DNA from: an uncultured Opitutia bacterium | GTDB lineage: Bacteria; Verrucomicrobiota; Verrucomicrobiia; Opitutales; Opitutaceae | Direction: 5' to 3' | Assembly: GCA_903862955.1 (NCBI GenBank) | Contig: CAIPAH010000030.1 | Span: forward strand, 124,001-188,000 | DNA length: 64,000 nt | In this document: piece after piece, positions 38,873-58,012 of the stretch | Numbering within the stretch: position 1 is the first letter of the stretch | Layout: every line of letters begins with the position of its first letter | Notes under the pieces: generated by a model | What the model saw: only the letters and a program-made list of their open reading frames with translations | The model's database searches: none | What the model was told of the DNA's origin: nothing | Translations under genes and position numbers: made by a program

Positions 38873-38916
38873 GGCGGGGTGGCGCAGTCAGAAATCCCAA
38901 GCCTAGACTGTCAACC

Positions 38917-41508: not shown

Positions 41509-42360
41509 TCACGCTGGCGATTTCACCAGCGCGGTGAACTCGGGCGCGGGGCCTTCCTTCAGCTCGCGCGCTTCGGTGCCATGATAGTAAAAAACCGGGC
41601 CGTGCTCGACGGTCACCTGGCCGGCGTGCAACCGCACCACGGCGGCGTTGCCGATGCCCACCACCGTCTCGGCGGGATTCAGCCGGCAGAAGGCCCGGAT
41701 CTTGTTCACGCGACCGCCATATTCGGCGTCAGTGGTGTGCGGGTGATGCGGATTCACCACGGCGGGAAACAGCCCGAGCGACTGGCGCGTCGGCACGTCC
41801 ACCACCGGAAAATCATTCGTGCAGCCGATGTTCGGGCCCGCGATGTTCGAACCCGCGCTCGTGCCGTTGTAGGGTACGCCGGCGAGGACGCGCTCGCGCA
41901 GGATCCGGAGCTGGCCGCTCTCGTAGAGCGTGCGCAGCAACAGGAAGGTCTCACCGCCGCTGACGAAGAACGCCTCGGCGTCCGCAATTTTCTTTCGCGC
42001 GGCAGCCCCCTCCCAGTGATGCAGCGACTCCACGTTGAAGTGATCCTCGGCAAAATACTCCCGCAGTTTCTGCTCGTCGGCGTCCCGCCTCGCCGGCTCC
42101 GTCGCATGCAGGATCAGCAGGATATTTTTCCGTTCCCCATAGTGCAGCCGGTGGGCGGCGCGCACAGCGTCGGTCAGCTTGCCTTCCTTGGTAATCGACC
42201 CGCCGCTGATCATCACGCTCGCGCCGGCGTTAGTATGGAAATTCGGCGCGGCCGGAAACAGGCCGTCCTTGGTCATTTCCGCGCGGACCGCCGGCGGCAG
42301 CGCCGCGGCGGCGCTGGCGACAGCCACGGTCTTGAGGAAGGTGCGACGCGAGGTGTTCAT
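41509..42360 (-). CDS. S51-family peptidase (cyanophycinase/dipeptidase E-like) with Tat-type leader
   Basis: The 283-residue protein starts with MNTSRRTFLKTVAVASAAAA, a Tat-type signal (SRRTFLK), so it is exported folded. The catalytic Ser168 lies in NGTSAGSN (165-172), the S51 nucleophile elbow; FVSGGET and NPHHPHTTDAEYGGR contribute other conserved positions. S51 enzymes cleave Asp-containing dipeptides, cyanophycin or similar substrates. Its ATG overlaps the TGA of the M28 gene by 4 bp (ATGA), which implies translational coupling. It is the last gene of the arabinosidase/peptidase run. Confidence 0.88.
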   Translation of the reverse strand: MNTSRRTFLKTVAVASAAAALPPAVRAEMTKDGLFPAAPNFHTNAGASVMISGGSITKEGKLTDAVRAAHRLHYGERKNILLILHATEPARRDADEQKLREYFAEDHFNVESLHHWEGAAARKKIADAEAFFVSGGETFLLLRTLYESGQLRILRERVLAGVPYNGTSAGSNIAGPNIGCTNDFPVVDVPTRQSLGLFPAVVNPHHPHTTDAEYGGRVNKIRAFCRLNPAETVVGIGNAAVVRLHAGQVTVEHGPVFYYHGTEARELKEGPAPEFTALVKSPA

Positions 42361-43793
42361 GGTTTCTTGGGGGCCGGCGGCAGGGCGCCGAAGGGCCAAA
42401 GGCCTAGGTTGGTCATCCGTTTCTCCAGGTCAAATTTGCGAAACAACGCCGCGGTCTCCGCCGGGGTGCGGCGCGCCACCGCCAGGCCGGGCTCGTTCGC
42501 GAGCCGGTAGACCAGCGCCGCAACCGTGGCAGACGACTCGGGGATCATCCGCGGGTCCACCTTTTCGACCGTGTCGGCGAAATCGTGATAGTAACGCGTC
42601 ACGTCGGCCTCGATTGTGCCGCCCAGCGTGATGGTGGGAATGCCTTCGAGCTGGAACGAGGTGTGGTCGCTGCCGAACCAGGTGATGCTGCTCACGCCCT
42701 GCTTGAGCTTGCGCTTGCCCAGCGACGCGTCGAAGCGCTGCAGCACCGGCACCAGCTCGTCATACCCCAGCGCATTTACCGCGATCGGAAAGCCCACCAT
42801 GTCGAGGTTGAGCATCGCCGCCACTGGCCGGCCACGCAGTGACGCCGCATGAAACCGCGAGCCGAACAGTCCCTCCTCCTCGCCGTTGAACCACACCAGC
42901 TCGATCGTGCGCAGATTCTGCGGCGCATGCGCCTGCAGGGCCTTCGCCAGGGCGAAGAGCTGCGCGGTACCGAGGCCATTGTCCGTCGCGCCCTGGCCGA
43001 GGTCCCACGAGTCGAAATGCGCGCCCGCGACGATCAGGTCCGGCGTGCGGCCGGGAAACGTCACGACGATGTTCGCCGTCTCGATCTCCGCGCAATGCGA
43101 GCGGGTCAGCAGGCTCACGCTCACTTTCTCGTCGCGCTTCAGCAGCCGGACCATCCAAAGGCCCTCCTCCTGCGTGATCGCAAAAAAGGGCAGGCGCAGG
43201 GGCACGCCGTTGAATGATCCGGTCCGGGCCAGCAGTTCGCCACCCGCGACGCGGTCGGTGAACAGGATGCCACACAGCCCGTGCCGCGTCGCCACCTCTT
43301 CCAGTTGACGACTCGACTGTGCCGCCGTCGCCGCCAGCAGGCCAATCTTGCCCGCCGTTTTCAGCCCGGTGAAGTCCTCCTCGCGACCGTCACGGATGTC
43401 CACCACCTCCGCCTCGAAACGCTCGTGCGGCTGCGTGTAGCTCAGCGACGCCGCGCGCAGCTTCCGGTGCACCGGCGCCAGCATCTCCACCTCGTCATCG
43501 CCGCGGATCCATCCGGGCATCGTGAAGGGCTCCAGATGCGCGTCGACGCCGAGGGCCTTCAGCTCGGCAACCGTGCGTTCGAGCGCCCCTCGGTTGTTGA
43601 CGCTCCCCGTGAGCCGTCCGCCGAAGTCATCGCAAAGATGCGTGAGAAATTCCGTGCCCGCCTTGTCTGCCAGCGCGTCCGCCACCATCGCATCCTGCGT
43701 GGCCTGCACCGGCTGGGCGTGGAGGTTGATGGCGAGCAATAAGCCCGTCGTCCACGCGAAGCAGCGGAAGGTGGATAGGGCGGAAACTCTCAT
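42357..43793 (-). CDS. Exported M28-family metallo-aminopeptidase
   Basis: The 478-residue protein has a signal peptide (MRVSALSTFRCFAWTTGLLL). A PA-type insert lies at residues ~125-235, followed by the M28 catalytic domain. The two-zinc site reads H259 (AGAHFDSWD), D271 (GATDNGLG), E305/E306 (WFNGEEEGLFG), D331 (LNLDMVGFP) and H377 (FGSDHTSF). It should remove N-terminal residues from peptides in the periplasm. It overlaps the GH127 gene upstream and the S51 gene downstream, both by ATGA, so all three are translated in step. This suggests that the operon handles a glycan attached to peptide. Confidence 0.92.
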   Translation of the reverse strand: MRVSALSTFRCFAWTTGLLLAINLHAQPVQATQDAMVADALADKAGTEFLTHLCDDFGGRLTGSVNNRGALERTVAELKALGVDAHLEPFTMPGWIRGDDEVEMLAPVHRKLRAASLSYTQPHERFEAEVVDIRDGREEDFTGLKTAGKIGLLAATAAQSSRQLEEVATRHGLCGILFTDRVAGGELLARTGSFNGVPLRLPFFAITQEEGLWMVRLLKRDEKVSVSLLTRSHCAEIETANIVVTFPGRTPDLIVAGAHFDSWDLGQGATDNGLGTAQLFALAKALQAHAPQNLRTIELVWFNGEEEGLFGSRFHAASLRGRPVAAMLNLDMVGFPIAVNALGYDELVPVLQRFDASLGKRKLKQGVSSITWFGSDHTSFQLEGIPTITLGGTIEADVTRYYHDFADTVEKVDPRMIPESSATVAALVYRLANEPGLAVARRTPAETAALFRKFDLEKRMTNLGLWPFGALPPAPKKP

Positions 43794-45727
43794 GACTCGC
43801 GAATCCAAACGCGCATCTCGCCTTCGCCGCGGTTGTTCCAGAGGCAATACGGCACGGCCGTGATCGTCGCGGGCGACACCGCCGGCTCCGCCGTGGAGTA
43901 AAGCTCCTCGTTGGACGCCCGCACGCGCTCCGCCGGGCCCTCGATGACAACCGCGCCACCGAGCAGGTCGTGGTCGAAACGCGCGGTCAGCGCCGCGGTC
44001 TTCGGCAGGCGCAGCTGGGAGAGCAGCGGGCCGTTGTCGGCCTGCTCGAAACAAAACACCATCGGCCCGCGCTGCAGCGCGACACAGCCGGCGTCGTGAT
44101 GCACCGCGGGATGCGCGCGCACCCGCTGGATCGGCATCGGGAAATCGAGCGTCACGACATCGCCCGCGCGCCACTCGCGGGCGAGATAGAGGTAGCCGTC
44201 GCGCGTGTGCGCCGCGAGATCGACCTTCTGGCCGTTGAGCCTCGCGCCCGGCGCCGTGCACCAGCCGGGCAGACGCAGGCGCAGCGTGAACGTCACGGGT
44301 TGCGCAGGGGAAACCTCGACCCGCACCGCGCCGTCCCAAGGATAATCCGTGTGCAGCGCCACCGCGGTTTTCTGCCCGGCGATCGTCGCTTCGAGGCGGC
44401 AATCGGCGTAGAGGTGCACCGCGAGCCCGTCGGACAGCACCGAATGCGTGTAGTAGCCGAGCGACGTGAGCGTGCGCGCGATGTTCGGCGGGCAGCAGGC
44501 GCAGCCGAACCACGGCACGCGCTGCGTCTTCACGTAATGCATGTCGTAGCGCCGCTTCGCCTCGTGCGGGCGGATTTCCAGCGGGTTGACGTAGAAGAAC
44601 GTTTTCCCGTCGAGCGCCATGCCGGCGAGGACGTTGTTGTAGAGCGCCCGCTCCATCACGTCGCCGTATTGCCCGCGCAGCTGCAGGTCGAGCATCCGCC
44701 GCGCCCAGAACACGAGGCCGATGCCCGCGCAGCTCTCGGCATACGCGCGGTCGTTGGGCAGGTCGTAGCGCTCGGCGAATTTCTCGCCCATCCACTCCGA
44801 GCCGACGCCGCCGGTCAGGTAGAGGTGATAGCGCGTGAGGTTGTCCCAGAGCGTCGTGCAGGCGCGGCGCAGCGACTCGTCCGGCAGCGTCAGCGCGAGG
44901 TCCGCCATGGCCGTGGTAAGATACATCATGCGCACGGAGTGGCCGATCGGGTCGACCAGGTTGCGCACCGGCCGGCCGGCCTGCTGGAAGTCCCAGCGGT
45001 CCGCGTGATAATAGACCGGCAGCTTGGCGAAGCCGAGGCGCTTCGCCTCCTCCTCGAAATAGAGCGGCTCCTGGCCGCGCTGGTTGACGAAATAGGCGGC
45101 GAGTTGCGCGTAGCGCTTCTCCCCGGTCACCCGCGCGAGCTTGACCAGCGCGAGCTCGATCTCCTCGTGGCCGGGATAACCCGGGATCTGGCCGGCGCCC
45201 GTCCCGAAGGTCCGCTCGATCATGTTGGCCAGTTTCGCCACCACGTCCAGCAGCGAGCGCTTGCCCGTCGCCTCGAAGTGCGCGACGCCCGCCTCGATGA
45301 AGTGCCCGGCGATATACAGCTCGTGGTATTCGAACAGGTTCTTCCACCGCATGTGCGGTTCCTTCACCTGCACATACGTGTCGAGGTAGCCGTCGGGCTG
45401 CTGCGCCTTCGCAATGATCGCGATGATGCCGTCCAGCTCCGCCTCCAACGCCGCGTCGGGATGCGTCGCCAGCCGGTATGAGGCCGCCTCCAGCCACTTC
45501 GCGAGGTCGGAATCCTGGAACCAGTAGCCGTAGAACTCCCCCTGCTTTTCACCCGCGGCGATTTGAAAATTGCTCACGGTCCCGCTGCGCTCGGCGCCCG
45601 GGATGCGGTCGTTCAGCGCCTCCCACTGATACGGGATAACGACGTCGCGCACGAGGCGCGCGCGCCCCGCGAGGAAGCCGCGCTCGAAGCGTATTTTGGG
45701 CAAGGCAAGGCAGGTGGGGCTGGTCAT
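43790..45727 (-). CDS. GH127 beta-L-arabinofuranosidase
   Basis: This 645-residue protein has the full GH127 (former DUF1680) layout, an (alpha/alpha)6 barrel followed by beta-sandwiches. The zinc/thiolate site known from HypBA1 (Glu, Cys, Cys, Cys) appears as E331 and C333 (YAESCAG) and C411/C412 (FGCACCPPN), one of which would be the nucleophilic cysteine. Characterised members release L-arabinofuranose from beta-linked arabinooligosaccharides, notably those on hydroxyproline of plant cell-wall glycoproteins. No signal peptide is seen, so it is probably cytosolic. It lies 26 bp after the GH51 gene and overlaps the M28 gene by ATGA. Confidence 0.93.
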   Translation of the reverse strand: MTSPTCLALPKIRFERGFLAGRARLVRDVVIPYQWEALNDRIPGAERSGTVSNFQIAAGEKQGEFYGYWFQDSDLAKWLEAASYRLATHPDAALEAELDGIIAIIAKAQQPDGYLDTYVQVKEPHMRWKNLFEYHELYIAGHFIEAGVAHFEATGKRSLLDVVAKLANMIERTFGTGAGQIPGYPGHEEIELALVKLARVTGEKRYAQLAAYFVNQRGQEPLYFEEEAKRLGFAKLPVYYHADRWDFQQAGRPVRNLVDPIGHSVRMMYLTTAMADLALTLPDESLRRACTTLWDNLTRYHLYLTGGVGSEWMGEKFAERYDLPNDRAYAESCAGIGLVFWARRMLDLQLRGQYGDVMERALYNNVLAGMALDGKTFFYVNPLEIRPHEAKRRYDMHYVKTQRVPWFGCACCPPNIARTLTSLGYYTHSVLSDGLAVHLYADCRLEATIAGQKTAVALHTDYPWDGAVRVEVSPAQPVTFTLRLRLPGWCTAPGARLNGQKVDLAAHTRDGYLYLAREWRAGDVVTLDFPMPIQRVRAHPAVHHDAGCVALQRGPMVFCFEQADNGPLLSQLRLPKTAALTARFDHDLLGGAVVIEGPAERVRASNEELYSTAEPAVSPATITAVPYCLWNNRGEGEMRVWIRES

Positions 45728-45753
45728 GCGGGAAAAACGGGAGGCGAATCAGC

Positions 45754-47262
45754 TCAGCTGGCGAAGCGGAGCGCGGCGACTGAGCCCGGCGGCAGCGAAA
45801 GTTGTACGGCGGCGCCTTTCGTGACCACGCCGGCGAGCGGCTGGGCCGTCACGGCGCGGGGCTGGTCGAAGGTGTTGCAGGTCGTGAGCGTCTTCGCGGC
45901 AATCACCTGCGCGGTGGGCGCGGTGATCGCCCGGCCGGGCAGCGACAGCTCGACGTCGGCGCTGTGCTCGGAGTCCGTGTTGCACAGCGTCACCGTCACG
46001 GCGCCGTCGGCCGCGAGTGACGCGGTGGCGGACACGGCCGGGTATTCGCGGCCGTCGTGCTTGATGTTCGCCGCATTCGATTCGACGCGCAATCGCTTCG
46101 CGCCCTGGTGCGCGGCATAGAGCGCGAACACGTGCCACGTCGGCGTGAGCACCATCCGGCCGCCGCCTTCCTCGGTGAGCGCCACGGCCTGGAGGACGTT
46201 GACGGTCTGCGCGAGGTTCGCGATGCGCACGCGCTCGCAGTGGTTGATGAAGATATTCAGGTGCAGGGCCGCGAGCACCGCGTCGCGCACCGTCTGCTGC
46301 TGGTGGAGAAACCCGGGGTTCGTGCCCGGCTCGACCGCATACCAGGACCCCCACTCGTCCACCACCAGCGCGGTCGCGCGCTTGGGGTCATGGCGGTCCA
46401 TCACGGCGGAGTGTTCGCGAACGAGCTCGTCCATCTTCCAGCCGAGCGACATCACCGCGCGCCAGCCGTCGCGGTCGAAGGGCGACGCGGCGTGCTTCTG
46501 CTCCCACGAACCCGGCACGGTGTAGTAGTGCAGCGACAGTCCCTGCATCAGCGGCGCGGGGTTGAGCGGGCCGCGATAGCCGAGCGTCATCATCACCTCG
46601 GTCCACTTGTAATCGTCGTTGGCCGCCCCGCTGGCGACGCGGTAGAGCGGCGCATTGGGAAAGTCGCGCGTGTAGGTCGCGAACTGGCGGAATTGCCCGG
46701 CGTAGTATTCGGCGGTCATGTTGCCGCCGCAGCCCCACGTCTCGTTGCCGATGCCCCACAGCCGCACCTTCCACGGGTCGCGGCGGCCGTTGGCGACGCG
46801 TTCGTCGGCGAGCGTGCCGGACGCGGCGTTGCAGTATTCCACCCACTCGCGGAGCTCGCGCGGCGAGCCGCTGCCGACGTTGCCGGCGATGTAGGGCTCG
46901 CAGCCGATCTGCTCGCACAGGTCGAGGAACTCATGCGTGCCAACGGCGTTGTCGTCGACCACCCCGCCCCAGTGCGCGTTGATCCGGCGGGGACGCTTCG
47001 CGCGCGGGCCGATGCCCTCGCGCCAATGGTAATCGTCGGCAAAGCAGCCGCCCGGCCAGCGGAGATTTGGCACGCGGATCTGCTTCAGCGCCGCAACGAG
47101 GTCGTTGCGCCAGCCCCGCGTGTTGGGCACCGGCGACTGCTCGCCGACCCACAGTCCGTCGTAAATGCAGCGGCCGAGGTGCTCGGAAAAATGGCCGAAG
47201 ATGTGCGGGTCAATGGCCGGGCCGGGGGCGTCGGTGTGGACGGTGAGACGGGCTTGGGGCAT
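45754..47262 (-). CDS. abfA: GH51 alpha-L-arabinofuranosidase
   Basis: The 502-residue enzyme matches intracellular GH51 arabinofuranosidases in length and layout: a (beta/alpha)8 barrel and a C-terminal beta-sandwich. FGHFSEHLGRCIYDGLW is at residues 22-38 and RWPGGCFADDYHW at 68-80. The acid/base E174 lies in WGIGNETWG and the nucleophile E303 in VVDEWGSWY. It removes alpha-linked L-arabinofuranose from arabinan or arabinoxylan fragments. There is no signal peptide. It sits between an exported unknown protein and GH127, consistent with removal of alpha- and beta-linked arabinose from the same imported material. Confidence 0.95.
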   Translation of the reverse strand: MPQARLTVHTDAPGPAIDPHIFGHFSEHLGRCIYDGLWVGEQSPVPNTRGWRNDLVAALKQIRVPNLRWPGGCFADDYHWREGIGPRAKRPRRINAHWGGVVDDNAVGTHEFLDLCEQIGCEPYIAGNVGSGSPRELREWVEYCNAASGTLADERVANGRRDPWKVRLWGIGNETWGCGGNMTAEYYAGQFRQFATYTRDFPNAPLYRVASGAANDDYKWTEVMMTLGYRGPLNPAPLMQGLSLHYYTVPGSWEQKHAASPFDRDGWRAVMSLGWKMDELVREHSAVMDRHDPKRATALVVDEWGSWYAVEPGTNPGFLHQQQTVRDAVLAALHLNIFINHCERVRIANLAQTVNVLQAVALTEEGGGRMVLTPTWHVFALYAAHQGAKRLRVESNAANIKHDGREYPAVSATASLAADGAVTVTLCNTDSEHSADVELSLPGRAITAPTAQVIAAKTLTTCNTFDQPRAVTAQPLAGVVTKGAAVQLSLPPGSVAALRFAS

Positions 47263-47333
47263 GGGGTAAGTTAGAAGGCAGAGGGAAGAAGGATGAGGTC
47301 AGGAAGACCCGCGGCGGATTGGGCGGACTCGGG

Positions 47334-47365
47334 AATCGAAAGTCGAAAATCGAGATTCGAAAATA
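47334..47365. repeat. Short tandem/palindromic TCGAAA-type tract in an operon gap
   Basis: GAATCGAAAGTCGAAAATCG and GAGATTCGAAAATAG form overlapping tandem and inverted copies of ATCGAAA. The tract lies in the 113-bp gap between protein A and GH51, the widest gap of the eleven-gene run. An internal promoter or processing site could lie there; no clear promoter was seen. Confidence 0.4.
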
Positions 47366-47375
47366 GTGCTGTCCG

Positions 47376-49241
47376 TCAGGGCAGCACGGAGTCGGTGATC
47401 TTCACCGTGTTGAAATCCAGGACGCGCTGCAGGTGGCCATAGGTCATCGTCAGTTTGCGCGACCCCTTCTCGGCGTTGAGATACGGGCCCTCGAACAGCT
47501 TCCACTTCGTGTAGTCGAGGGGCTGGCCGTCGACCACCGGCGCGGCGCCGTAGGTGACAACGACGTTCTTCCCGCGCAGCGTGCGCATCTTCACGGTCGG
47601 CGTCGGCTCGAGCTTGAACTCCAGCGGCAGCGCCACGATCGCGGCCTTGAACGCCGCGAAGTTCTTAAACTCGCTCGTGCTCGCCACCTGGAGAATCGTG
47701 CCGTTCTTGAGCGAATCGCTCTGGAGCCGGCTGTCGCGGATCGCCGCCTGCGCCCAATGGCTCTGCGTCCACTCATACGGCGCCAGCGGCCGATACGCGA
47801 GGTAGGCGTTGCCGCCCTGCGCAAAAATCCAGCCGGAGGGGTCCTCGGTGAGGTGCGTCAGGTCCTTCGAGAAGAAACCATTGACCTGCGGAAAACGCGT
47901 GCCGGGCGGGATGTCGTAGAGCGCCACGATCGTGTCGAGGTCCTGGAAAACCTGCTCGTAGGGCGAGCCGCCGAGCAGCTTGTCGGGCGAGTCATAGCTC
48001 GGCTTGGCGAGGTTGACCGCGCCCCCGATCATCGGCTCGGGGTAGCCGGTGAAATACGTCTGCATCGAGCGCGCCGACGACTCCGGTTGCATCGAGAACA
48101 TCACGTTGTGCTGCGCGCGGGGGTTGGGCACCGCCCAGGTCACGTCCCAGACATGCGTTTGGATCGGATCGGACATCCCGCCTTGGAACGAACCCACGGC
48201 ATAGTCGTGCCGCATGTAGGTCGTCTTGTAGATCGGGGCGAAAAGCACGTCGCTGTAGCGCCAGCGGCGACGGGTGCGCTTCAGGTCCTGCTGCAGGAAA
48301 TCGTGGTCGCGGTCCATGGCGATGCGGTAGAGCACCTCCGGCACCTCGTAGTTGGCCGCCGCCGGCGCGAAATAGATGCCCCAGCCGCCAAAGCCCGTCG
48401 GGGGCGGAACGTTGCCGAAGAGCAGCCAGGAGAAATAGGCCGCCAGGCTGTTCGATGGTTCGATCACCGACTCGTCGGTGGTCCGGGCGTGCGACCCGAC
48501 TGGCACGCCATTCAGCGTGCCCTCGGCGAGGTCGGCAAAAATCCACTCGAGCATCATGTGCCCGCGGGTCTTCATCGCGGGATCCTTGGCCCAACTCGCC
48601 AGGAACATCAGCGGGCAGGCATACTCGCCGATGTAGTGCACGGGATTGAATTCCCCCTGCCCCACCGTCGTGGCCAGGTCCATCCAGTGGATGATATACT
48701 CCCTCGACTCGGCGAGATTCTCCTCGGAGCTCTTGCCGGTGAACCACGAGCTCGCGGGCTCGTGCGGATACATCTCCGAAATCAGGTAGAGTGAAATGTA
48801 ATACATCGCCCAGTGGTTCTCCGTGTCGCCGCGGATCTGGTAGGTCGTGCGCCACATGTCGCGCATCGCCTTCTTCGCCTCGGGCGAGAGCTGGTCGCGG
48901 CCCATGTAGGTCACGCACACGACGGGAAACATCCAGAACGGCCCCGTGCCGGGCGCCTTCATCAGCCGGATCACCTGCTCCGAGCAGAATTTCGGGTCCT
49001 CGTGGCGCGCCAGCATCGTCGCGACGGCGGCGAGGTCGATGCCGCCCGGGTCGGCGCGGTTCACGAGGTTGGCGCGGTAATCAATGACCTCCTGCACGCG
49101 CTTAAGATACGCCGCGCGGCGCACGGCAGCGTCGGTGACGATCTCCCGGCTGGGCACGGTCGTGGCACTGAAGGAAGGCTGCGCGCGCACCGCGGTGGTG
49201 GCGGCGAGGACGAGCAGCAGGCAGGCGGGGAAAAATTTCAT
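47376..49241 (-). CDS. Exported toroid-like protein A, unrecognised family
   Basis: The 621-residue protein has a signal peptide (MKFFPACLLLVLAATTAVRA). The N-terminal ~300 residues look like an all-helical toroid with conserved RGDTENHW (137-144), GKSSEENLAESREYIIHWM and TTVGQGEF (191-198), then a GSHAR motif. The second half looks beta-rich with AVGSFQGGMSDPIQTHVWD and TEDPSGWIFAQGGNAYLAYR. Every one of these motifs recurs in the paralogue at 55992-57923. Toroid plus beta-sandwich is the shape of several polysaccharide lyases, but no family match is claimed. It follows propeller A by 18 bp and is probably periplasmic or on the cell surface. Confidence 0.7.
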   Translation of the reverse strand: MKFFPACLLLVLAATTAVRAQPSFSATTVPSREIVTDAAVRRAAYLKRVQEVIDYRANLVNRADPGGIDLAAVATMLARHEDPKFCSEQVIRLMKAPGTGPFWMFPVVCVTYMGRDQLSPEAKKAMRDMWRTTYQIRGDTENHWAMYYISLYLISEMYPHEPASSWFTGKSSEENLAESREYIIHWMDLATTVGQGEFNPVHYIGEYACPLMFLASWAKDPAMKTRGHMMLEWIFADLAEGTLNGVPVGSHARTTDESVIEPSNSLAAYFSWLLFGNVPPPTGFGGWGIYFAPAAANYEVPEVLYRIAMDRDHDFLQQDLKRTRRRWRYSDVLFAPIYKTTYMRHDYAVGSFQGGMSDPIQTHVWDVTWAVPNPRAQHNVMFSMQPESSARSMQTYFTGYPEPMIGGAVNLAKPSYDSPDKLLGGSPYEQVFQDLDTIVALYDIPPGTRFPQVNGFFSKDLTHLTEDPSGWIFAQGGNAYLAYRPLAPYEWTQSHWAQAAIRDSRLQSDSLKNGTILQVASTSEFKNFAAFKAAIVALPLEFKLEPTPTVKMRTLRGKNVVVTYGAAPVVDGQPLDYTKWKLFEGPYLNAEKGSRKLTMTYGHLQRVLDFNTVKITDSVLP

Positions 49242-49259
49242 GTGGGCAAAAGGTGACGG

Positions 49260-50300: not shown

Positions 50301-50340
50301 GGTGTTTAAAATCGATCAGCGCGGGGAGTCACCGCGCTGG

Positions 50341-51636
50341 TCACGCTTTCTTGAGGATTTCGTCGAGCGCGCCAATCAGGTGGTCGCATTCCTCGACCGA
50401 GTTGAAGAGATGGGTCGAGACGCGGACGGCATCGAGGTCGACCTCCGACACCGGCCGGCAGCGCAGGTGATAATCCACCAGCAGGTGCTCGAAGAGCTGG
50501 TTGTGTTTCATCTTCGGCGTGCGGAAGGTCAGGATCGACGCGCACATCACCGGGTCCTTCGGCGTGAGAATTTCGACACTGTCGATCTTCTCGAAGCCGG
50601 CGCGAACGCGGTCGGCGAGGGCGTGGCCGCGCGCAGCGATGCGGTCGCGGCCAATTTCGTTCTGGAACCGCGTCGCCTCGGCCAGGGCCAGCACCGCGGC
50701 CGCGTCGCGCGTGCCGTATTCGTAGCGATGCGCGCCCTTCGAATAGACGAAGGGACCGGGGTTGTTGAGGTTGACGTCCTCGCTCGAGTAGGCGCCCACC
50801 TGCCGCGGGACGACCTCTTTCATCTTGTCGCCGCGAATCCACAGCACGCCCGTCTCGTGCGGGCCGCCCACCCACTTGTGGCCGCTCGTGGCGTAGGAAT
50901 CACAGCCGAGCGCGGGCAGGTTCACCGGGATCATGCCGGCCGACTGCGCGCCATCCACGTGGAACCAGCACTTGTGCTGCGCTGCGAGCTTCGCGATCTC
51001 GGGGCACGGCATGATGATGCCGGTCGGCGACGTGATGTGGGAAACCTGGATGACGCGCGTGCGCTTCGTGATCAGCGCCGCGATCCGCTCGACGTTGCCG
51101 GCCGCGCGGTCGGGGTCGGGTTCGAAGGTTTTGACGATGATGCCTTCGGTATGCTGCCGGTTGAGCCAGGGAAACGAGCCGCCGGGGTGTGCGTGGGACT
51201 CAAAGATCACCTCGTCCGCCGCCGTCAGCTCGAGGCCGGTCGCGACGATGCAATTGCCCTCGGTGGCGTTGCGCACGAAACACAGGTCGTCGGTCTTCGC
51301 GCCGAAATAGGCGGCCACAATCACGCGCGCCTGCGCAAAAAAGTCATGGCCCGTCTCCACCCGCTCCTGGAGTTGCCGACTGGCCACCGTCAGCATGTCC
51401 AGCACGCGCCGCGGCGCCGGGCCCAGGCCGCCGGTGTTGAAATACGTGCGCTCAGGCGTCATCGGAAACTGCACACGCACTTGCCGCCAGAACGCCTCGG
51501 GATCGGCGGGGTTCCAGACGGGCATCGCGGAGAGCTGCTCCGGGTCGCCGTCAATTTCGCCCAAGGCGCGCGTCGCCAGCAGTCCCAGCGCCCCGGCGCC
51601 CAGGCTGCGAAGGAAGGTTTTTCGATCGAGGTTCAT
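50341..51636 (-). CDS. Class V aminotransferase-like PLP protein with export-type leader
   Basis: The 431-residue protein belongs to PLP fold type I, class V (isopenicillin-N-epimerase/cysteine-desulfurase-like). K254 in the TSGHKWVGGP loop should bind PLP; D228 (FHVDGAQSAG) would pair with the pyridine nitrogen; NTGGLGP lies at 67-73. The first 26 residues, MNLDRKTFLRSLGAGALGLL and onward, resemble a Tat leader, but with RK in place of RR. If exported, the cofactor would travel with the folded enzyme. The ATG overlaps the TGA of the DUF6807 gene. Substrate unknown; perhaps an amino acid or amino sugar freed by the locus. Confidence 0.87.
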   Translation of the reverse strand: MNLDRKTFLRSLGAGALGLLATRALGEIDGDPEQLSAMPVWNPADPEAFWRQVRVQFPMTPERTYFNTGGLGPAPRRVLDMLTVASRQLQERVETGHDFFAQARVIVAAYFGAKTDDLCFVRNATEGNCIVATGLELTAADEVIFESHAHPGGSFPWLNRQHTEGIIVKTFEPDPDRAAGNVERIAALITKRTRVIQVSHITSPTGIIMPCPEIAKLAAQHKCWFHVDGAQSAGMIPVNLPALGCDSYATSGHKWVGGPHETGVLWIRGDKMKEVVPRQVGAYSSEDVNLNNPGPFVYSKGAHRYEYGTRDAAAVLALAEATRFQNEIGRDRIAARGHALADRVRAGFEKIDSVEILTPKDPVMCASILTFRTPKMKHNQLFEHLLVDYHLRCRPVSEVDLDAVRVSTHLFNSVEECDHLIGALDEILKKA

Positions 51637-52499
51637 GGGAGGGCGGTGAAGGTCAGCGTGTGGTCGATTTCGAGGGCCGCGCTGGCGGGCACCGCGAGAT
51701 TCCGGTCGAATTGCACCGGGAACGCCGCCAGCGGATAGCCGTTGCGGCGGACGAACCAGTGCAGGGGACCGGAGTTATTCTCGAAGCGAATGATAACGCG
51801 CCGGAGCGTCTCGTCCAGCTGGCCGTGCCACTCCATCCAGCGCGCCGCCGCGCCGTGCACCGCCTCCAGCCCTTCGCGGCCGCCTTCGGCGATGATCTTG
51901 ATCGTCGGGTCCAGATGGTCGTCGAGCAGCTCGCGCGCACCGCGGAACGTCAGGCCCGTGTAATGCGAGCCGGGTTTGCCGCCCGCCGAGTGCGGGTTGC
52001 CCAGCGAAAGTTCCCGGCCGCTGACGTTCACCAGGCGCGACTGCCAGTGGAGCGCCCAGGTTTGGGTGTCGAAATTCGCCATCACCCCGAGCGTCCGCTC
52101 CTCGCGGAACAGCACGCCCTTCGGCGTGTGCCACTCGAGCGTGTGCGCGAGCGTCGCCACATTGCCCGCCGCCGCGAGCTTCGTCCACGCCACATGGCGC
52201 TGCTCGCCATGGTCGTCGCGCCACTTGTAGCCGTCCTCGGGCCGGCAGGTGGGGCCGCCCCAGAAATTGAAGCCCGACACGTCCGTCAGCGTGAACGCGA
52301 GGCCATGGTGCCAGGGATGGTCGTTGGGCCGGAAATTCGTCAGCGTGTCGCCCGCGAGCGAGTTGAGCGGATGGAGATAGGGCTTGGGCGATTCCTTCAG
52401 CGGCTGGGCGGAGACGTGGACGTAGCGGAAGAGCAGCTGGTCGCCGGCGAAGACGCTGACAGCCCGACCCTCCTCGTGTTGCAGGCGGAGCGTGTTCAT
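51633..52499 (-). CDS. DUF6807 (PmoA-like annotation) family protein
   Basis: The 288-residue protein starts at MNTLRLQHEEGRAVSVFAGD; longer frames extend into the rhamnosidase gene. It is beta-rich with NDHPWHHGLAFTLTDVSGFN (H61, H64, H65), GKPGSHYTGLTFRG and WMEWHGQLDE, which is the pattern of the DUF6807 family. The name PmoA used in some databases is a historical misnomer; these proteins are found in carbohydrate loci of Verrucomicrobia, Planctomycetes and Bacteroidetes. No signal peptide. ATGA overlaps link it to the genes on both sides. Confidence 0.82.
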   Translation of the reverse strand: MNTLRLQHEEGRAVSVFAGDQLLFRYVHVSAQPLKESPKPYLHPLNSLAGDTLTNFRPNDHPWHHGLAFTLTDVSGFNFWGGPTCRPEDGYKWRDDHGEQRHVAWTKLAAAGNVATLAHTLEWHTPKGVLFREERTLGVMANFDTQTWALHWQSRLVNVSGRELSLGNPHSAGGKPGSHYTGLTFRGARELLDDHLDPTIKIIAEGGREGLEAVHGAAARWMEWHGQLDETLRRVIIRFENNSGPLHWFVRRNGYPLAAFPVQFDRNLAVPASAALEIDHTLTFTALP

Positions 52500-54937
52500 G
52501 AGAGGGGAAAAGCCTCCTCGAACCGGCCGCCCGCCGGCGTGCGGGTGGCGCCGCCGGGGGCAACGATGGTGAGCGCAATGCCGGCGGGGGCATTGACGGC
52601 CAGGTGAAACTTTCCGTCGGCGACGCGCCAGGCGACTTCGATCAGACCGCGCGGCGTGCAGACGCTGCCCGCGGCATGCGTGAGCCCGCAGCGGTTCGGC
52701 GCGATGCGGGTCGACACGAAGCCGGGCTCCGTCGCCGTCACGCCGAGGATCCGCTGCTGGAACTCCAGCACGGGGTGCGCGCTCCATGCGTGGCAGAGCG
52801 AGCGCCAGTAGCTGTTCTCCTCGACGAACGTGGACAGGCCGTAGCCGACCGACTCATGCCACGGGCCGAGGTGCTTCGGCATGTCGTCCGCGCGGCCGGA
52901 TTTCGCCAGCGCGGCAAAGCCCGTGTGCAGCCAGAAGAACGAGCCGGGCGCGAGCTTCGGGTCGTTGGGAAAGCGCTTCAGGATGATCGCGCGCTCCCGT
53001 TCGCCCGCGAGCCCGGCGACGATCGCCCAGGCATTGCCGTATTGGCTGACCTCGGGGCCGCCCGGGCGATCAAAGTAAAGCCCCTCCGCCTCGGACCAGA
53101 AAAGCGCATGCGCTTTGCGGCGCAGGTCAGTGGCCTCGTGCGTGAGGGCGTCCGCCTCCGCCGCGTGCCCGAACGAGCGCACGAGCAGCGCGGCCTCGTC
53201 GAGGGCATTGATGTATTGCGCCGAATGGATGCAGGTCGCGCCGGTGTCGGCGCCGGGCACCACGCCCCGCGGCCACCACGGGCACCAGTCGGTGATGTTC
53301 CAAAATGGCAGCTTCGCTGGCAGCCCCGCGGCGTCGGTGTGCCGGCGATACCAGTCGAGCACGGCCCGGACGCCCGGCAGCAGGTCCTGCACGGTCGCGC
53401 GGTCGCCGGTGCAGTAGAAGTAGTCCTTAATGTTCGTGATCCAGTGGATGCTCCACGCCGGGATGATCTGCACGAGCCGCGACGGGAAACGTGCCTGCGT
53501 GAGCCCGTCGGACAGCCGCGACCAGTCGAAGTGATACAGCGCCTGGCGGCTCAGCCGGTAGTCGCCGGTCGTGAGCATGCCGAGCTTCGACGTGATCATC
53601 GTGTCACCGGCATACTGCATCTGCTCGTAGTGCGGGCAGTCCTCGAACGTCTCGTGCGAGCACATCCGCATCGTGTGCAAGCCGACGGACCAAATCTTGT
53701 CCAGCGCGGGGTCGGAGGACTTGAACGTCGCTGCGATGCGATACGGATAGGCCGTGAAGCGGTGCGCCACCGCTCGAAGCGTGAGCGGCGCAGCGCCGAC
53801 CTTGATCGACAGGCCGACGTACCGGAACGCGCGCCAGTGCAGCGGCTCGAAGGTCTCGTCGCGGCCCGACGGCTCCCAGATATCGCACCAACCGGTCACT
53901 TCACCGCGGCGGTCGAAGGTCCAGCCGCGACTCTCGTCGGCAAAATGCGACGCGAGGTTCGCGAGCGACTGCTGCTTGCCCAGGAGTTTCGCGCCCGGCG
54001 TGTCCCAGCGCAGGCGCAGCGCCTCGGCGTAGGTCAGCCGGACGACGCTGCCCGCCCCGCCGGAAACCTCGAGATGCGGAAACGCCGTCGTCAGCGCCGC
54101 AGCGTCGAGCACGAGCAAAACCGTCGAGTTCGCCGGCAACGTCAGCGCCGCCCCGCGTTCCAGCAGCGCTGACCAAGGCGCCGGCACTGCCGTGCCGCCG
54201 GCGAGGAACGCATCCGCAAATTTCTCCGGCGCACCTTCTTCCAGCATCGGCACCATGCGCGGCACGAGGCCATACGGACTCGCGGGATCGCGGCGGTTGA
54301 CCAGCAGCTCGGCCTTGAACAGCAAATGCGCTGCGGGCCAAGCCGCGTCGTCGAACTCCGGTGTGTTCCAGCCGACGGGGATGAACTTCGACACGCGATG
54401 CTCGAAGTAGCCGAGGTAACCCTCGAAGGTTGTGTTCTCGTTCTGGAAGCGATGGCCCTTGTCGACCGAGACCTTCCATGCCGCATCCGTGCGCAGGTCG
54501 GCGATCGTCTCGCCCGCCTTTGTCTGCAGCGCGCCCTCGAGCACGAAGCCGCCCGTGTAAGTCATCACCGAGCACGGCGGACCAAGCAGCGCGGGGCGGT
54601 GCGCCACGCGGGACATGTCCAGCACCAGTGCCGCCAGGACGTTGCGGCCGCGCCGCAGATGCGGCGCGAGGTCGAACGTCTCGTAGAAATGATGGTTCAC
54701 GTCGCCCTTCGCCGGGCCGCGGCCGAGGCAAACGCCGTTGCAGAAAAACAGATAGCGGCTGTCCGCCGAGACGTGGACCGTGAGCTGCACCGCAACCGGG
54801 TCGGCGACGTCAAACGTCCGTCGGAAATACCGCACCTGGTAATGCGAGGGCGACGCCGCGTCGGGCGCCGGGGCGGAGTGCGAGCCCTCGGCGGACCAGA
54901 TCCAGTTGGCGGAATTGACGAAGGGGGCGGCGGACAC
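52496..54937 (-). CDS. Alpha-L-rhamnosidase-like (GH78-type) protein
   Basis: A GTG start at 54937 is proposed because no in-frame ATG lies near it and the fold begins at once (SAAPFVNSANWIWSAEGS); this gives 813 residues. N-terminal beta domains include YFRRTFDVADPVAVQLTVHV and YLFFCNGVCLGRGP. The (alpha/alpha)6 catalytic barrel contains FEDCPHYEQMQYAGDTM, the acidic DCP..EQ.QY.GD signature of rhamnosidase six-hairpin domains, and ENSYWRSLCHAWSAHP. A C-terminal beta-sandwich ends the protein. It should release terminal alpha-L-rhamnose. No signal peptide is evident from this start. It lies 23 bp after propeller B and overlaps the DUF6807 gene. Confidence 0.85.
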   Translation of the reverse strand: MSAAPFVNSANWIWSAEGSHSAPAPDAASPSHYQVRYFRRTFDVADPVAVQLTVHVSADSRYLFFCNGVCLGRGPAKGDVNHHFYETFDLAPHLRRGRNVLAALVLDMSRVAHRPALLGPPCSVMTYTGGFVLEGALQTKAGETIADLRTDAAWKVSVDKGHRFQNENTTFEGYLGYFEHRVSKFIPVGWNTPEFDDAAWPAAHLLFKAELLVNRRDPASPYGLVPRMVPMLEEGAPEKFADAFLAGGTAVPAPWSALLERGAALTLPANSTVLLVLDAAALTTAFPHLEVSGGAGSVVRLTYAEALRLRWDTPGAKLLGKQQSLANLASHFADESRGWTFDRRGEVTGWCDIWEPSGRDETFEPLHWRAFRYVGLSIKVGAAPLTLRAVAHRFTAYPYRIAATFKSSDPALDKIWSVGLHTMRMCSHETFEDCPHYEQMQYAGDTMITSKLGMLTTGDYRLSRQALYHFDWSRLSDGLTQARFPSRLVQIIPAWSIHWITNIKDYFYCTGDRATVQDLLPGVRAVLDWYRRHTDAAGLPAKLPFWNITDWCPWWPRGVVPGADTGATCIHSAQYINALDEAALLVRSFGHAAEADALTHEATDLRRKAHALFWSEAEGLYFDRPGGPEVSQYGNAWAIVAGLAGERERAIILKRFPNDPKLAPGSFFWLHTGFAALAKSGRADDMPKHLGPWHESVGYGLSTFVEENSYWRSLCHAWSAHPVLEFQQRILGVTATEPGFVSTRIAPNRCGLTHAAGSVCTPRGLIEVAWRVADGKFHLAVNAPAGIALTIVAPGGATRTPAGGRFEEAFPLS

Positions 54938-54960
54938 GAGGGGAGGAAAAATTTGGGCGC

Positions 54961-55995
54961 TCAGCGCCGGGGCTTCGGGACGAAAATGTAATCGGTGCCA
55001 TTGGCGCCGTAGAGCCCGCCATTCTGCCAGGTGCGGCCGAGGTCGTCGGAGAAGTAACTCCCCTCCTCGAACGTCGACGCCCACAGGCGGGACGGCGCGT
55101 CGGGATCGAAGGCCAGTACCAGGACGTTCTTCACCGGCAGGCCCGCGCTGCGGTCCGCCCATGTCGCGCCACCATCCGTCGAAACTCGCACGCCCACATT
55201 CCAGCCGGCGACCGCCATCGTGGACACGTCGTGCGGGTGCAGCGCAGCGCCGTAAAGATTCGCCGTCGCGGAAACCGGATCGGCCGCCGACCAGCTCACA
55301 CCGTTGTCCCGCGAGATCCACGCGCCGCGACCTTGCGTGCCGGCCAGCAAGAGCCGCGGGTCGACGCTGCTGCGCACGAGGCGCAGAATCGTCGTGGCGG
55401 GCGATTCGATGCGCGTCCAAGTCTGCGCCGCGTCCGTCGAAACGTAGAGCCCGTCCTCGGTGCCGAGCAGCACGCGGCCGCGTTGATGCGGATCGGTCAC
55501 GAGCGTCTGGCAATAAGGTTTCGCGAGGCCGGACAAGGCCGCCTTCCAGGTTTCGCCGCCGTCGGTCGAGCGGATCGGGCCCCACGCCGTGGCACCGTAG
55601 ACAAGCTGCGGATCGACGCCGTCGTAAACGATGCTCAGCACGTCGCCGACTTCCCAGCCGGTGACCATCCGCCAGGTCTTGCCGCCGTCCCGACTCCGCA
55701 CCACGCCGTCCGAGCTGGGCACGAGCATGAAGGAATTGTCTCCCGGCCGCACCGTCAGGCCGCTGATCGCGACGCGGGGGCCGAACGGTTTCCATTTTCC
55801 GTCATCGGTGCGGAAGAACAGCCCGAAATCCTCGGGCGTCGGGGAATTTTTCTGCGCCTTGGTGAGCGAGGCCGACGCATACATCCGATACGCCGCGGGC
55901 GCTGCCGGAGCCGTTGCCACCGGCGCGGGCGCGGTGGTCGCCCACGCCAACGCCGGGAGAGTCAGGGCCAGGAGAAAGGCGCGCGTCGGCTTCAT
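54961..55995 (-). CDS. Exported Asp-box (BNR-type) beta-propeller protein B
   Basis: The 344-residue protein has a signal peptide (MKPTRAFLLALTLPALAWAT) and an Ala/Pro-rich linker. Six Asp-box-like motifs follow: SRDGGKTW (101-108), STDGGETW (143-150), STDAAQTW (186-193), SRDNGVSW (228-235), STDGGATW (272-279) and a final SDDLGRTW. The closing sequence NGTDYIFVPKPRR parallels that of propeller A (AVNRFIFLPHAGN). Its ATG overlaps the TGA of the toroid B gene by 4 bp, so the two are translationally coupled and may work as a pair. Confidence 0.82.
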   Translation of the reverse strand: MKPTRAFLLALTLPALAWATTAPAPVATAPAAPAAYRMYASASLTKAQKNSPTPEDFGLFFRTDDGKWKPFGPRVAISGLTVRPGDNSFMLVPSSDGVVRSRDGGKTWRMVTGWEVGDVLSIVYDGVDPQLVYGATAWGPIRSTDGGETWKAALSGLAKPYCQTLVTDPHQRGRVLLGTEDGLYVSTDAAQTWTRIESPATTILRLVRSSVDPRLLLAGTQGRGAWISRDNGVSWSAADPVSATANLYGAALHPHDVSTMAVAGWNVGVRVSTDGGATWADRSAGLPVKNVLVLAFDPDAPSRLWASTFEEGSYFSDDLGRTWQNGGLYGANGTDYIFVPKPRR

Positions 55996-57923
55996 GGCGC
56001 GGCCTCCTCGATCAGCCGGTTTTTGAAGTCCAGCAGGTAGCGTTGCTGGCCGTGATGGATTTCCAGCCGATCGCTGCCGCGGACTTCGCGCGCGAAGGGG
56101 CTGTCGAAGAACGGCCAGTTCGCGTAGTCGACCGGCTGCCCGTCCACCGCCGGCGTGTCGCCGTAGCGCGCATGCAGCACGTGGCCGTCGAGCGCGGTGA
56201 ACGTAACCTCGGGCTCAGGGGTGGTGGTGAACTTCAGTGGGAGCGCCTTCACCGCCGCCTGGAAATCCGCGAACGACTTGAAGTCGCGCACCGGCCCCAC
56301 CTGCACCACGTAACCGTTGCGCAGCGCCGTGCTCACATAGCAGCGGTGGCCGGTGCCCCACTCGTTGAAGGCGCCGCTGAGAAACACGCCACCCGCGCCG
56401 TTGCGCAGCAGGCCGGTCCAGTCGCTGGGCCGCCACTGGCCGGGCGCGAGCGGTCGATACGCGATGTAAACCGGCCCGCCCTGCGTGAAGATCCAGCCCG
56501 AGGGGTCTTCGGTCGTGTTCACCAGATCGCGCGTGAAGAGCGTCGAGATGAGCGGAAAGCGGTTGTCCGCCGGCATGTCGTAGAGCGCGATGAGCGCGGT
56601 GCCCTGCTGGAACACCTGCTCGTGCGGCGAGCCGCCCGGCAGTTTGTCCTCGGAATCGTAGTCGGCCTTCGACCGGATGATCAGGCCGGTGACGGTGTCC
56701 CAATCGCCGCCAAAATACATCGTGCCCTCGTGCGGCGAGGAATACGGCTGCAGGCCGAAGAACGTGTTGGCGGCGTCGGTGCGCTTCTTGTCCGTCCGCC
56801 AGATCAGGCTCCAGGTCTCCTGCTGGATGGGCTGCAACACGCCGCCCTGCGACGAACCGAGCACGAAGTCGCGGTCCACGTAGCTGTATTTATACACCGG
56901 CGCGGTCCGGCGGTCGCCGATCAGGTAAGATTCGGGGCCGGCGTTGCGCTCGCGCCAGCGGGTGCGCTTGAGTTCGCGCTCGACGTAGGGTTGCGCGCGG
57001 TCGCGGGCGACGCGCTCGAGGATCGGCGGCGGCCGGTAACCGGCCATCGCGAGGATCGAGGCGGCGGGATCGGCGACGCGATCGCCAAACCCGAAGAGCA
57101 GCCAGGCGATGCCCTCGATCGGCGCGCGGCCCTGGGTGATGATCTGCCGCGGATAGACCCGGCTGTGCGCGCCGCCATACCAGCCGTCCACGTTTTCCAC
57201 GGCGTAGTCGTAGATGATGTAGTCGAGCATCATCTTCGCCTTGAGCCGGAACGCATCGTCGTGCGCCCACCCGGCCAGCAAGCCGAGGGGAATGAGGTAT
57301 TCCTGGATGTAGCTTGGGGAATCAAATTCGCCCTGCCCGTGGGTCGTGGTGATGCCCATCCAATGCTCGAGGTAGGACTTCGCCTCGGCCATGTTTTCCG
57401 CGGACGACTTGCCGTTATACCACTGGTCGGGCCCGGCCTCCGGCCACGTCTGCGCCGCCAGATAGAGACTGGAATAATAGAGCACCCAGTGATTCTCGGT
57501 GTCGCCCCGCGCCGGCCAGTAGGTGCGCCACAGTTCCTGGATGCGGGCCCAGCTGGCGGCATCGAGGTGGTCATGCCCCGCCGTCATCACCGAGACCATC
57601 GGATACATCCAAAACATCGCCGCCACCGGCACCGGCTCGTTCAATTTGGCCAGTCGGGCCAGCGCATCCACCCGTCGCTGACTGAGCTGCAAGGCCACCG
57701 CGACATCGACCAGCGAGCCGCCCTTGGTGGGATCCGGTTTGATCGTGTCGACCGACGCCGCCAGGACTGCCGCCCGGCGTTCCTCATAGCGGCGGGCGAT
57801 CTCCGCGTCGGACATGGCGAGGGGACCAGGGTCCGGGAGGCCGGCCTTGGCCGTCGACCAACCAGCCACCACCATCGTAAAAACGAGGCCGGTCCGACGC
57901 CAGTTCACCGCATGCAAAATCAT
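55992..57923 (-). CDS. Exported toroid-like protein B, unrecognised family
   Basis: The 643-residue protein has a hydrophobic leader (TGLVFTMVVAGWSTAKA, residues 11-27) and is a full-length paralogue of protein A. Shared motifs include RGDTENHW (139-146), GKSSAENMAEAKSYLEHWM, HGQGEF, GGAHSR, VLGSSQGGVLQPIQQETW and TEDPSGWIFTQGGPVYIAYR. The helical first half and beta-rich second half suggest a lyase- or hydrolase-like enzyme, but no catalytic residues can be assigned with confidence; conserved His, Asn and Glu in the motifs are candidates. It is the first gene of the eleven-gene run and is divergent from the isomerase gene. Confidence 0.7.
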   Translation of the reverse strand: MILHAVNWRRTGLVFTMVVAGWSTAKAGLPDPGPLAMSDAEIARRYEERRAAVLAASVDTIKPDPTKGGSLVDVAVALQLSQRRVDALARLAKLNEPVPVAAMFWMYPMVSVMTAGHDHLDAASWARIQELWRTYWPARGDTENHWVLYYSSLYLAAQTWPEAGPDQWYNGKSSAENMAEAKSYLEHWMGITTTHGQGEFDSPSYIQEYLIPLGLLAGWAHDDAFRLKAKMMLDYIIYDYAVENVDGWYGGAHSRVYPRQIITQGRAPIEGIAWLLFGFGDRVADPAASILAMAGYRPPPILERVARDRAQPYVERELKRTRWRERNAGPESYLIGDRRTAPVYKYSYVDRDFVLGSSQGGVLQPIQQETWSLIWRTDKKRTDAANTFFGLQPYSSPHEGTMYFGGDWDTVTGLIIRSKADYDSEDKLPGGSPHEQVFQQGTALIALYDMPADNRFPLISTLFTRDLVNTTEDPSGWIFTQGGPVYIAYRPLAPGQWRPSDWTGLLRNGAGGVFLSGAFNEWGTGHRCYVSTALRNGYVVQVGPVRDFKSFADFQAAVKALPLKFTTTPEPEVTFTALDGHVLHARYGDTPAVDGQPVDYANWPFFDSPFAREVRGSDRLEIHHGQQRYLLDFKNRLIEEAAP

Positions 57924-57955
57924 AATGGGGTTGTGTCGCGAGAAAGAGAATGCTC

Positions 57956-57985
57956 ACCATACGAGCGCTCCGTTCAGCAATTCAA
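57956..57985 (-). promoter_or_regulatory. Candidate promoter for the eleven-gene run
   Basis: On the minus strand TTGAAT (57985-57980) and TATGGT (57961-57956) are separated by 18 bp, each matching four of six sigma-70 consensus bases. The position is about 33 bp before the start codon of protein B. Evidence is sequence likeness only. Confidence 0.3.
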
Positions 57986-57998
57986 TCAGCTTTTTCCC

Positions 57999-58008
57999 TG
58001 AAATTTCA
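57999..58008. promoter_or_regulatory. TGAAATTTCA palindrome (candidate operator) in the divergent gap
   Basis: A perfect 10-bp palindrome lies 4 bp before the isomerase-like ATG and upstream of the candidate promoter of the operon on the other strand. The same half-site, TGAAA/TTTCA, recurs in front of the adjacent LacI gene. Confidence 0.4.
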
Positions 58009-58012
58009 AATC

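Follow-up and report, generated by a model that had tools for sequence, protein, structure and literature searches.

A conserved SusD-less TonB glycan locus in an Opitutaceae genome and its paired proteins with a predicted lyase-type fold

TonB-dependent carbohydrate-utilization (CUT) loci without SusD are a known type of gene cluster, in which a TonB-dependent receptor is grouped with glycosidases and a regulator, and pectin-type polymers are among their substrates. A locus of this kind lies in a stretch of 64,000 nucleotides (the window) from an uncultured Opitutia bacterium of the family Opitutaceae (assembly GCA_903862955.1, contig CAIPAH010000030.1, positions 124,001 to 188,000). It contains a TonB receptor, glycosidases, and a regulator in one place and resembles the SusD-less CUT type. 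The SusC/SusD pair of Bacteroidetes-type polysaccharide utilization loci is not found, since the SusD family PF07980 had no match in the whole genome (the control gave a match in 1 of 14), in agreement with a preliminary description of this DNA. The same description had denied the locus a transporter of its own. This holds insofar as no inner-membrane sugar transporter was recognized by Pfam among the 14 locus genes, one of which, a TIM-barrel-like protein, has no Pfam match; it does not hold for the TonB receptor (60218-63388, plus strand), which belongs to a conserved divergent arm. An SSF symporter in the window (29562-31745) lies outside the locus. In contrast to the described CUT loci, in which most glycosidases are predicted to be extracellular or outer-membrane proteins, the present locus has no recognized inner-membrane transporter and glycosidases that look cytoplasmic.

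The locus is conserved and its type is known; its new part is a protein pair that reaches well beyond the locus, whose member UNK is without a Pfam, NCBIfam, or PDB match, and that is not named in the available part of the description of TonB CUT loci. The pair is encoded twice on the minus strand, as UNK1 (55992-57923) with the Asp-box beta-propeller ASP1 (54961-55995), and as the paralogue UNK2 (47376-49241) with ASP2 (49260-50300). Based on structural modeling, UNK most likely represents an apparently undescribed polysaccharide-lyase-type family with an Asp-box propeller as partner.

Predicted fold and invariant residues of UNK

UNK1 and UNK2 are 37% identical, and UNK2 has a hydrophobic signal-like start. 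Neither protein matched Pfam or NCBIfam at E 0.01 or any PDB sequence. When 25 aligned UNK members were compared with Pfam at E 1, PF07940 was not found, and four unrelated families appeared with one member each at E 0.2 or more. A profile of these 25 rows, run with hmmsearch against PDB sequences to E 10, returned only 2zbt (E 1.4) and no lyase with a solved structure. No description of UNK was found in the open-licence PMC literature, in which the family has no name to query, and a query for new lyase families in the same literature yielded nothing relevant.

The AlphaFold model of UNK1 (pLDDT 92, pTM 0.91) consists of a helical toroid (residues 39-307) followed by a region of mainly strands forming a beta-sandwich (313-641). 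This is the layout of the helical-toroid lyases of the PL8, PL12, PL17, PL33, and PL35 type, in which an N-terminal helical toroid precedes an antiparallel beta-sandwich. In a Foldseek search with this model, the 19 best of 460 PDB matches were polysaccharide lyase chains from nine proteins. Seventeen chains were found at E<=0.001, and every match at E<=0.005 was a lyase. From rank 20 downward the matches were unrelated proteins with low probability, except for the dehydratase 9o4u and a GH146 enzyme. The VIA comparison gave its best Z of 11.1 for heparinase III; hyaluronate lyase reached 10.3 and chondroitinase AC 10.2, and the rmsd of these matches was 5.4-6.4 over 402-450 residues. A Z of at least 8 was reached by 56 of 992 chains, the alignments covered both domains, and the 50 matches listed were all toroid lyases (49) or dermatan sulfate epimerase. 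UNK thus shares domain layout and overall predicted fold with the helical-toroid lyases, from which it differs by the lack of detectable sequence similarity and by its Asp-box partner, its activity being putative.

Five residues located in the toroid, N144, H145, E199, Y205, and R255, are identical in all 51 UNK sequences aligned, comprising 49 of 50 picked relatives and the two window proteins. They are also kept in all 11 rows of a more distant alignment that includes seven relatives with 23-27% identity; these seven frames were chosen among those of six regions, and neither the 1127-aa frame of L172 nor one of the frames of L171 was included. In the beta-domain, only P393, F554, G595, and P609 stay invariant in this distant alignment. 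A distant UNK paralogue from the same genome (L175, G000:C13:228500-231500, positions 612-2429) has DNH in place of ENH and retains the Asn, His, Glu, Tyr, and Arg. In PL17 lyases, an adjacent Asn-His pair is described as neutralizer and a Tyr as acid in the available portions of two reports (PMC4765187, PMC12336832). As far as the available text goes, Asn and Tyr together with His or Arg in the toroid constitute the usual residue set of such lyases. By analogy, the invariant residues of UNK may match the catalytic roles known from PL17, and N144/H145 would hold the carboxylate of the substrate while Y205 and R255 would serve the acid/base chemistry.

A different chemistry on the same scaffold is conceivable, in which UNK would act as a hydrolase, dehydratase, or C5-epimerase and the invariant residues would serve other purposes. 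This is suggested by the fold being common to dermatan sulfate epimerase, by a weak Foldseek match to the beta-D-glucuronate dehydratase 9o4u (E 0.25, probability 0.63) and a weaker one to a GH146 beta-L-arabinofuranosidase (E 0.15, probability 0.16), and by a genome without GH88/GH105 enzymes to process unsaturated ends. The restriction of the Foldseek matches at E<=0.005 and of 49 of the 50 listed VIA matches to lyases argues for a lyase instead, as does the invariance of residues of the kind usual in toroid lyases, and a non-lyase function of UNK is regarded as improbable. It is a guess that UNK could cut a rhamnose-uronate bond related to the one cleaved by the rhamnose-glucuronate lyases of PL27. 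In PL27, according to the accessible part of the structural report, the beta-sandwich comes first and the helical barrel last (PMC8377490), which is the reverse of the order in the UNK1 model.

The Asp-box partner and the spread of the pair

The pairing of UNK with ASP was analyzed in 77 loci, which are the best-scoring of 382 UNK-encoding stretches found in one genome scan, several of them cut by contig ends; the counts thus cover the closer UNK relatives. An ASP gene lies within 400 bp on the same strand of 101 of 110 UNK copies, and five further copies are undecidable at the edges. Locus L096 contains three consecutive UNK copies with no ASP neighbor. In 79 pairs analyzed, ASP follows UNK in 45 and precedes it in 34, so the link between the two survives rearrangement. 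Over these pairs, from which short, fused, and shared-partner rows were left out, the distances within the two families co-vary with r 0.89 (shuffle maximum 0.07), and exchanging the partners inside each of the 15 two-pair loci lowers r to 0.25. Five natural fusions of UNK and ASP are open in one frame, two among the 77 loci (L075, L077) and three outside them (in G035, G114, and G220). In the model of a fused protein (pLDDT 89.7), both domains are well predicted and their mutual placement is not defined (pTM 0.67).

ASP1 and ASP2 are 35% identical, both have signal-like starts, and both were recognized by Asp-box matches (for ASP2 BNR, Sortilin, and PSII_BNR). The propeller of the fused model resembles 3b7f and the GH74 and Ycf48 propellers, with which ASP shares the fold and the repeat motif. 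Unlike these, the ASP copies found adjoin or are fused to UNK, a comparison that is biased because the loci were picked by UNK. One could assume that catalysis rests mainly with ASP, as a propeller lyase or hydrolase, and that UNK is its helper. GH74 enzymes are indeed among the structural matches of the propeller, and FoRham1, a rhamnose-glucuronate lyase that uses His85 and the neighboring His105, is a propeller built on this repeat motif too, as stated in the accessible part of its description (PMC8377490). In contrast, none of 33 ASP sequences has an invariant or nearly invariant His in common with the others, and the catalytic His of PL42/GH145 is accordingly not found. The matches also include Ycf48, which is not known to be an enzyme. 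ASP as the main catalyst is very unlikely on these grounds; as a near-constant partner of UNK, it would more likely contribute to binding or assembly than act as another catalyst.

In a scan of the phylum, 36 of 387 genomes matched UNK at E<=1e-20, and with UNK1 as single query 44 of 273 genomes of the order matched at E<=0.001. Twenty-two of the 77 loci are titled outside Verrucomicrobia, namely as Rhodothermales and their kin, Bacteroidetes, KSB1, Acidobacteria, and one unnamed bacterium; ASP is present in 21 of them, and GH78, GH51, GH127, and DUF6807 were seen in none. In seven of these 22 loci (titled Rhodothermales or their kin and one Bacteroidetes), the pair occurs with Gfo/Idh/MocA genes and mostly with SDR, PhyH, cupin, and TIM-barrel genes. 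A gene resembling heparinase II/III is present in ten other loci (all 4 members tested belong to PF07940), accompanied by an SSF symporter in 9 and an alcohol dehydrogenase in 5 of the ten. Around UNK-ASP in the Rhodothermales-type loci L107, L108, L110, L113-L115, and L117 there are genes for PhyH, cupin, Gfo/Idh, SDR, TIM-barrel, and MetE-like proteins and a 468-aa protein without Pfam match, a set that resembles a separate oxidative sugar pathway.

With somewhat less than even confidence, UNK-ASP may be viewed as a two-part and sometimes fused enzyme, the founder of a polysaccharide lyase (or epimerase) family that would be new and spread over four or more bacterial phyla. Asn-His, Glu, Tyr, and Arg would form its toroid site, the propeller would be needed for substrate binding or assembly, and the present locus would be one of several catabolic settings.

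Gene order, conservation, and regulation of the locus

The eleven minus-strand genes of the preliminary description (41509-57923) are all present with the ends given there. Five of their ten junctions, at 55992, 52496, 51633, 43790, and 42357, are ATGA overlaps as had been claimed, and the other five are gaps of 23, 40, 18, 113, and 26 bp. The earlier family calls (S51, M28, GH127, GH51, DUF6807, GH78-type, a class-V pyridoxal phosphate (PLP) enzyme, two Asp-box proteins, and two unknown paralogues) were upheld by Pfam and NCBIfam.

Downstream of UNK1 and ASP1, a GH78-type alpha-L-rhamnosidase (52496-54937) is encoded, for which a GTG at 54937 was assumed as the uncertain start and no signal was seen. 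Its six-hairpin domain PF17389 and C-terminal domain PF17390 score above the cut-off and PF08531 below it; RhaB (PDB 2okx) is matched with 219 bits, and the NCBIfam rhamnosidase models were far below their cut-offs. The next genes encode a DUF6807 protein (51633-52499; PF14100, 199 bits), a family with only a passing mention in the open-licence PMC literature, and the class-V PLP enzyme (50341-51636; PF00266, 171 bits). The latter is related to cysteine desulfurases and PvdN (PDB 5b7s, 132 bits; PvdN 5i90, 91 bits), and its start is Tat-like by eye, yet unflagged by the RR test. After ASP2 and UNK2 follow a GH51 alpha-L-arabinofuranosidase-type enzyme (45754-47262; PF06964; PDB 2vrk, 593 bits) and a GH127 beta-L-arabinofuranosidase-type enzyme (43790-45727; PF07944/20736/20737; PDB 4qjy, 769 bits), both probably cytoplasmic as no signal was seen. 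GH51 comprises the catalytic and C-terminal domains and shares both Glu motifs with 2vrk. GH127 has the three-domain layout of its family and shares the CACCPPN and Glu motifs with 4qjy; these motif residues of both enzymes are presumably the catalytic ones. GH127 matches 4qjy and the HypBA1-type enzyme 3wkw over nearly its whole length, its specificity being judged from sequence. The name aceric acid hydrolase (NF049879) was rejected for it (414 bits versus a cut-off of 950). The array ends with an M28 peptidase with a signal-peptide-like hydrophobic start (42357-43793; PF04389, 117 bits) and an S51 peptidase with a Tat signal (41509-42360; PF03575, 112 bits; PF10518), which is PepE-like and reaches 145 bits with the PepE model, below its cut-off of 156.

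On the plus strand, a TIM-barrel isomerase/epimerase-like protein (57950-58891, true start probably 58013), assigned by eye and without Pfam match like its relative in L127, is followed by the LacI-family regulator (59013-60053; PF00356, PF00532) and the TonB receptor (PF07715 Plug), whose start is uncertain and which has no SusD partner. An Rfam search of 36000-64000 gave no match. Two tandem MacB/FtsX-type permeases are encoded 3' of the S51 gene (36437-41420), and their relatives occupy the corresponding flank in G256 and G264. Elsewhere in the window, a second glycan locus (3392-12318) is suggested by a TonB receptor (3392-6595) together with a protein of 1082 aa whose C-terminal domain is of the heparinase II/III type (9070-12318, 39 bits). 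A zinc alcohol dehydrogenase, a GlcNAc 2-epimerase-like protein, an SSF symporter, and a Gfo/Idh/MocA oxidoreductase at 20847-32850 possibly form another sugar-catabolic cluster.

A search for the same gene order in other Opitutaceae, proposed in the preliminary description, showed that the order recurs. The six relatives compared first (the genus-mate G256 as well as G264, G035, G228, G252, and G066) have the same genes in the same order, some missing or doubled, and most arrays face LacI and the TonB receptor, often with the TIM-like protein. GH51 is missing in G264, UNK1-ASP1 and GH51 are missing in G066, G252 shows no LacI, and S51 was not seen at this place in any of the six except G256. 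Because the same genes recur in order, mostly facing LacI and the TonB receptor, the unit is not limited to eleven genes and extends to about 63388. A GH78 relative occurs in 26 of the 77 loci, with UNK1-ASP1-GH78-DUF6807-PLP in series in 20, a divergent LacI in 22, and a divergent TonB receptor in 20 of these. Relatives of the PLP enzyme are present in 34 and TIM-like relatives at the same place in 18 of the 77 loci. In L162-L167, which are six additional genomes from this family, LacI and the TonB receptor face GH78 and DUF6807, followed by PLP (5/6), RidA (3/6), ASP2, UNK2, and M28; GH127 and S51 occur in one each, and GH51 and UNK1 in none. In L168 and L169, from other families, only ASP2-UNK2 was seen. 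The core of the locus consists of GH78, DUF6807, and the secreted UNK-ASP pair, and GH51 and GH127 are variable.

This bears on the suggested substrate, plant cell-wall material with arabinose and rhamnose; the glycan may be of plant or algal origin. The locus is a conserved glycan locus in which the GH51 and GH127 proteins are true relatives of arabinofuranosidases, and it also encodes a GH78-type enzyme. Arabinose does not define it: L162 and L164-L167 show neither GH51 nor GH127 and keep GH78, DUF6807, the Asp-box protein, UNK, and M28, and in 51 of the 77 UNK loci none of GH78, GH51, GH127, and DUF6807 is visible, although the stretch shown exceeds 15 kb in 32 of these. Owing to this variability, arabinose is considered an accessory of this lineage.

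The palindrome TGAAA(N)TTTCA (TGAAANTTTCA sites) occurs in the window between both arms (TGAAATTTCA, 57999-58008) and directly 5' of the LacI gene (TGAAACTTTCA, 58986-58996). When one mismatch is allowed, 20 of 24 loci have it ahead of LacI (shuffles predict 0.10) and 19 of 24 have it in the divergent region (0.41), whereas it precedes the TonB receptor in 4 of 20 loci (0.15) and ASP2 in none of 20 (0.03). The palindrome was first spotted by eye in the window, which contributes one of the 24 loci; the loci compared are related to one another, and shuffling preserved only the base composition. Exact palindromes number 21 in 380,453 bases of LacI-bearing loci versus 4 in 832,539 bases without LacI. 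The standard LacI operator consensus was discarded (15 matches versus 17.6 expected). Scans for sigma-70 promoters (3 found, 1.7 expected) and for hairpins in the region (22 found, 13.7 expected) were also made. The operator pattern suggests that the LacI protein regulates its own gene as well as the UNK1 promoter, and the glycan locus is probably co-regulated.

The idea of one coordinated unit is in line with these palindromes, though not as a single transcript. A terminator-like hairpin with an 8-pair stem lies 3' of the PLP gene (50317-50339), at the position of RidA in relatives, and in all 21 loci that have RidA beside PLP it is encoded on the opposite strand. This makes two transcription units likely, UNK1 to PLP and ASP2 to S51; the palindrome was not found before ASP2. 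The RidA-family genes after PLP (PF14588 and PF01042 in 3 of 3 tested) start with a signal-like stretch where they were read, and the window genome has two PF01042 genes elsewhere. In L044 (124-666, minus strand) and 20 further loci, a RidA gene with a signal-like start is convergent with the PLP gene, possibly indicating an exported PLP/RidA pair.

Proposed function

Taken together, the locus would be a LacI-controlled, SusD-less TonB locus for an acidic glycan that contains rhamnose and, in this lineage, arabinofuranose, with UNK-ASP pairs of the lyase type cutting first; we assign this reading a probability of about 0.55. The two exported pairs would make the first cuts, with UNK probably cleaving beside a uronic acid by beta-elimination. 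The oligosaccharides would enter via the TonB receptor and may be finished in the cytoplasm by GH78, GH127, and GH51. The DUF6807 protein, the PLP enzyme, and the peptidases presumably have roles in this scheme.

Several observations weigh against this proposal. GH88/GH105 (PF07470) had no match in the genome (the control gave a match in 3 of 14), and the single KduI-like gene of the genome lies outside the locus, so the usual pathway that handles unsaturated uronides was not recognized; should UNK be a lyase, its products would take another route. The PLP enzyme, RidA, and the two peptidases fit no simple glycan scheme. Regarding the fold, the lyase matches of Foldseek have low TM-scores (0.29-0.38) and high rmsd values (11.7-16.7), the VIA comparison cautions that best Z-scores of 7-8, or about 13-14 for mostly helical models, can reflect a common arrangement, and the toroid fold also includes the dermatan sulfate epimerase 6hzn (Z 9.3). 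An hhalign comparison of UNK with the ten-member heparinase-II/III-like neighbor family gave a probability of 0.6%. Four UNK copies lack ASP, one in L055 and the three of L096, and within the 30 pairs of multi-pair loci alone the partner swap lowers r only from 0.90 to 0.79. Finally, three of the 19 divergent-region palindromes (L068, L073, L074) coincide with the ones scored before LacI, because no TIM gene lies between.

Two other substrates have to be considered. The first is a hydroxyproline-rich glycoprotein such as extensin, arabinogalactan protein, or a green-algal wall protein, from which GH127 and GH51 would trim arabinose, with the two exported peptidases and the PLP enzyme using the peptide. 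The best PDB matches of GH127 are beta-L-arabinofuranosidases (4qjy, 3wkw), beta-linked L-arabinofuranose is reported for arabinogalactan proteins and extensin in the available part of PMC10850190, and M28, S51, and the PLP enzyme are part of the locus, M28 being kept in five loci without visible GH51 or GH127. This substrate is nevertheless rather unlikely, as no gene for hydroxyproline catabolism was recognized in the locus by Pfam or NCBIfam, S51 and M28 peptidases are common, and GH127 and GH51 are the variable part. The second is a pectin with arabinan side chains, such as rhamnogalacturonan I, which would make this an ordinary pectin locus with one unusual lyase. GH78, GH51, and GH127 alongside a lyase-fold protein would suit pectin, the use of which is annotated in another Opitutaceae according to the accessible part of PMC12613999, whereas the lack of GH105/GH88 in the genome and of any pectin lyase family match among the eleven genes renders it doubtful.

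The predicted fold, the candidate catalytic residues, the natural fusions, and the candidate regulator site make the function of UNK directly testable. If UNK proves to be a lyase, it would add a family to the toroid lyases that is tied to an Asp-box propeller, and it would help to tell the diet of a mostly uncultured group of Verrucomicrobia.

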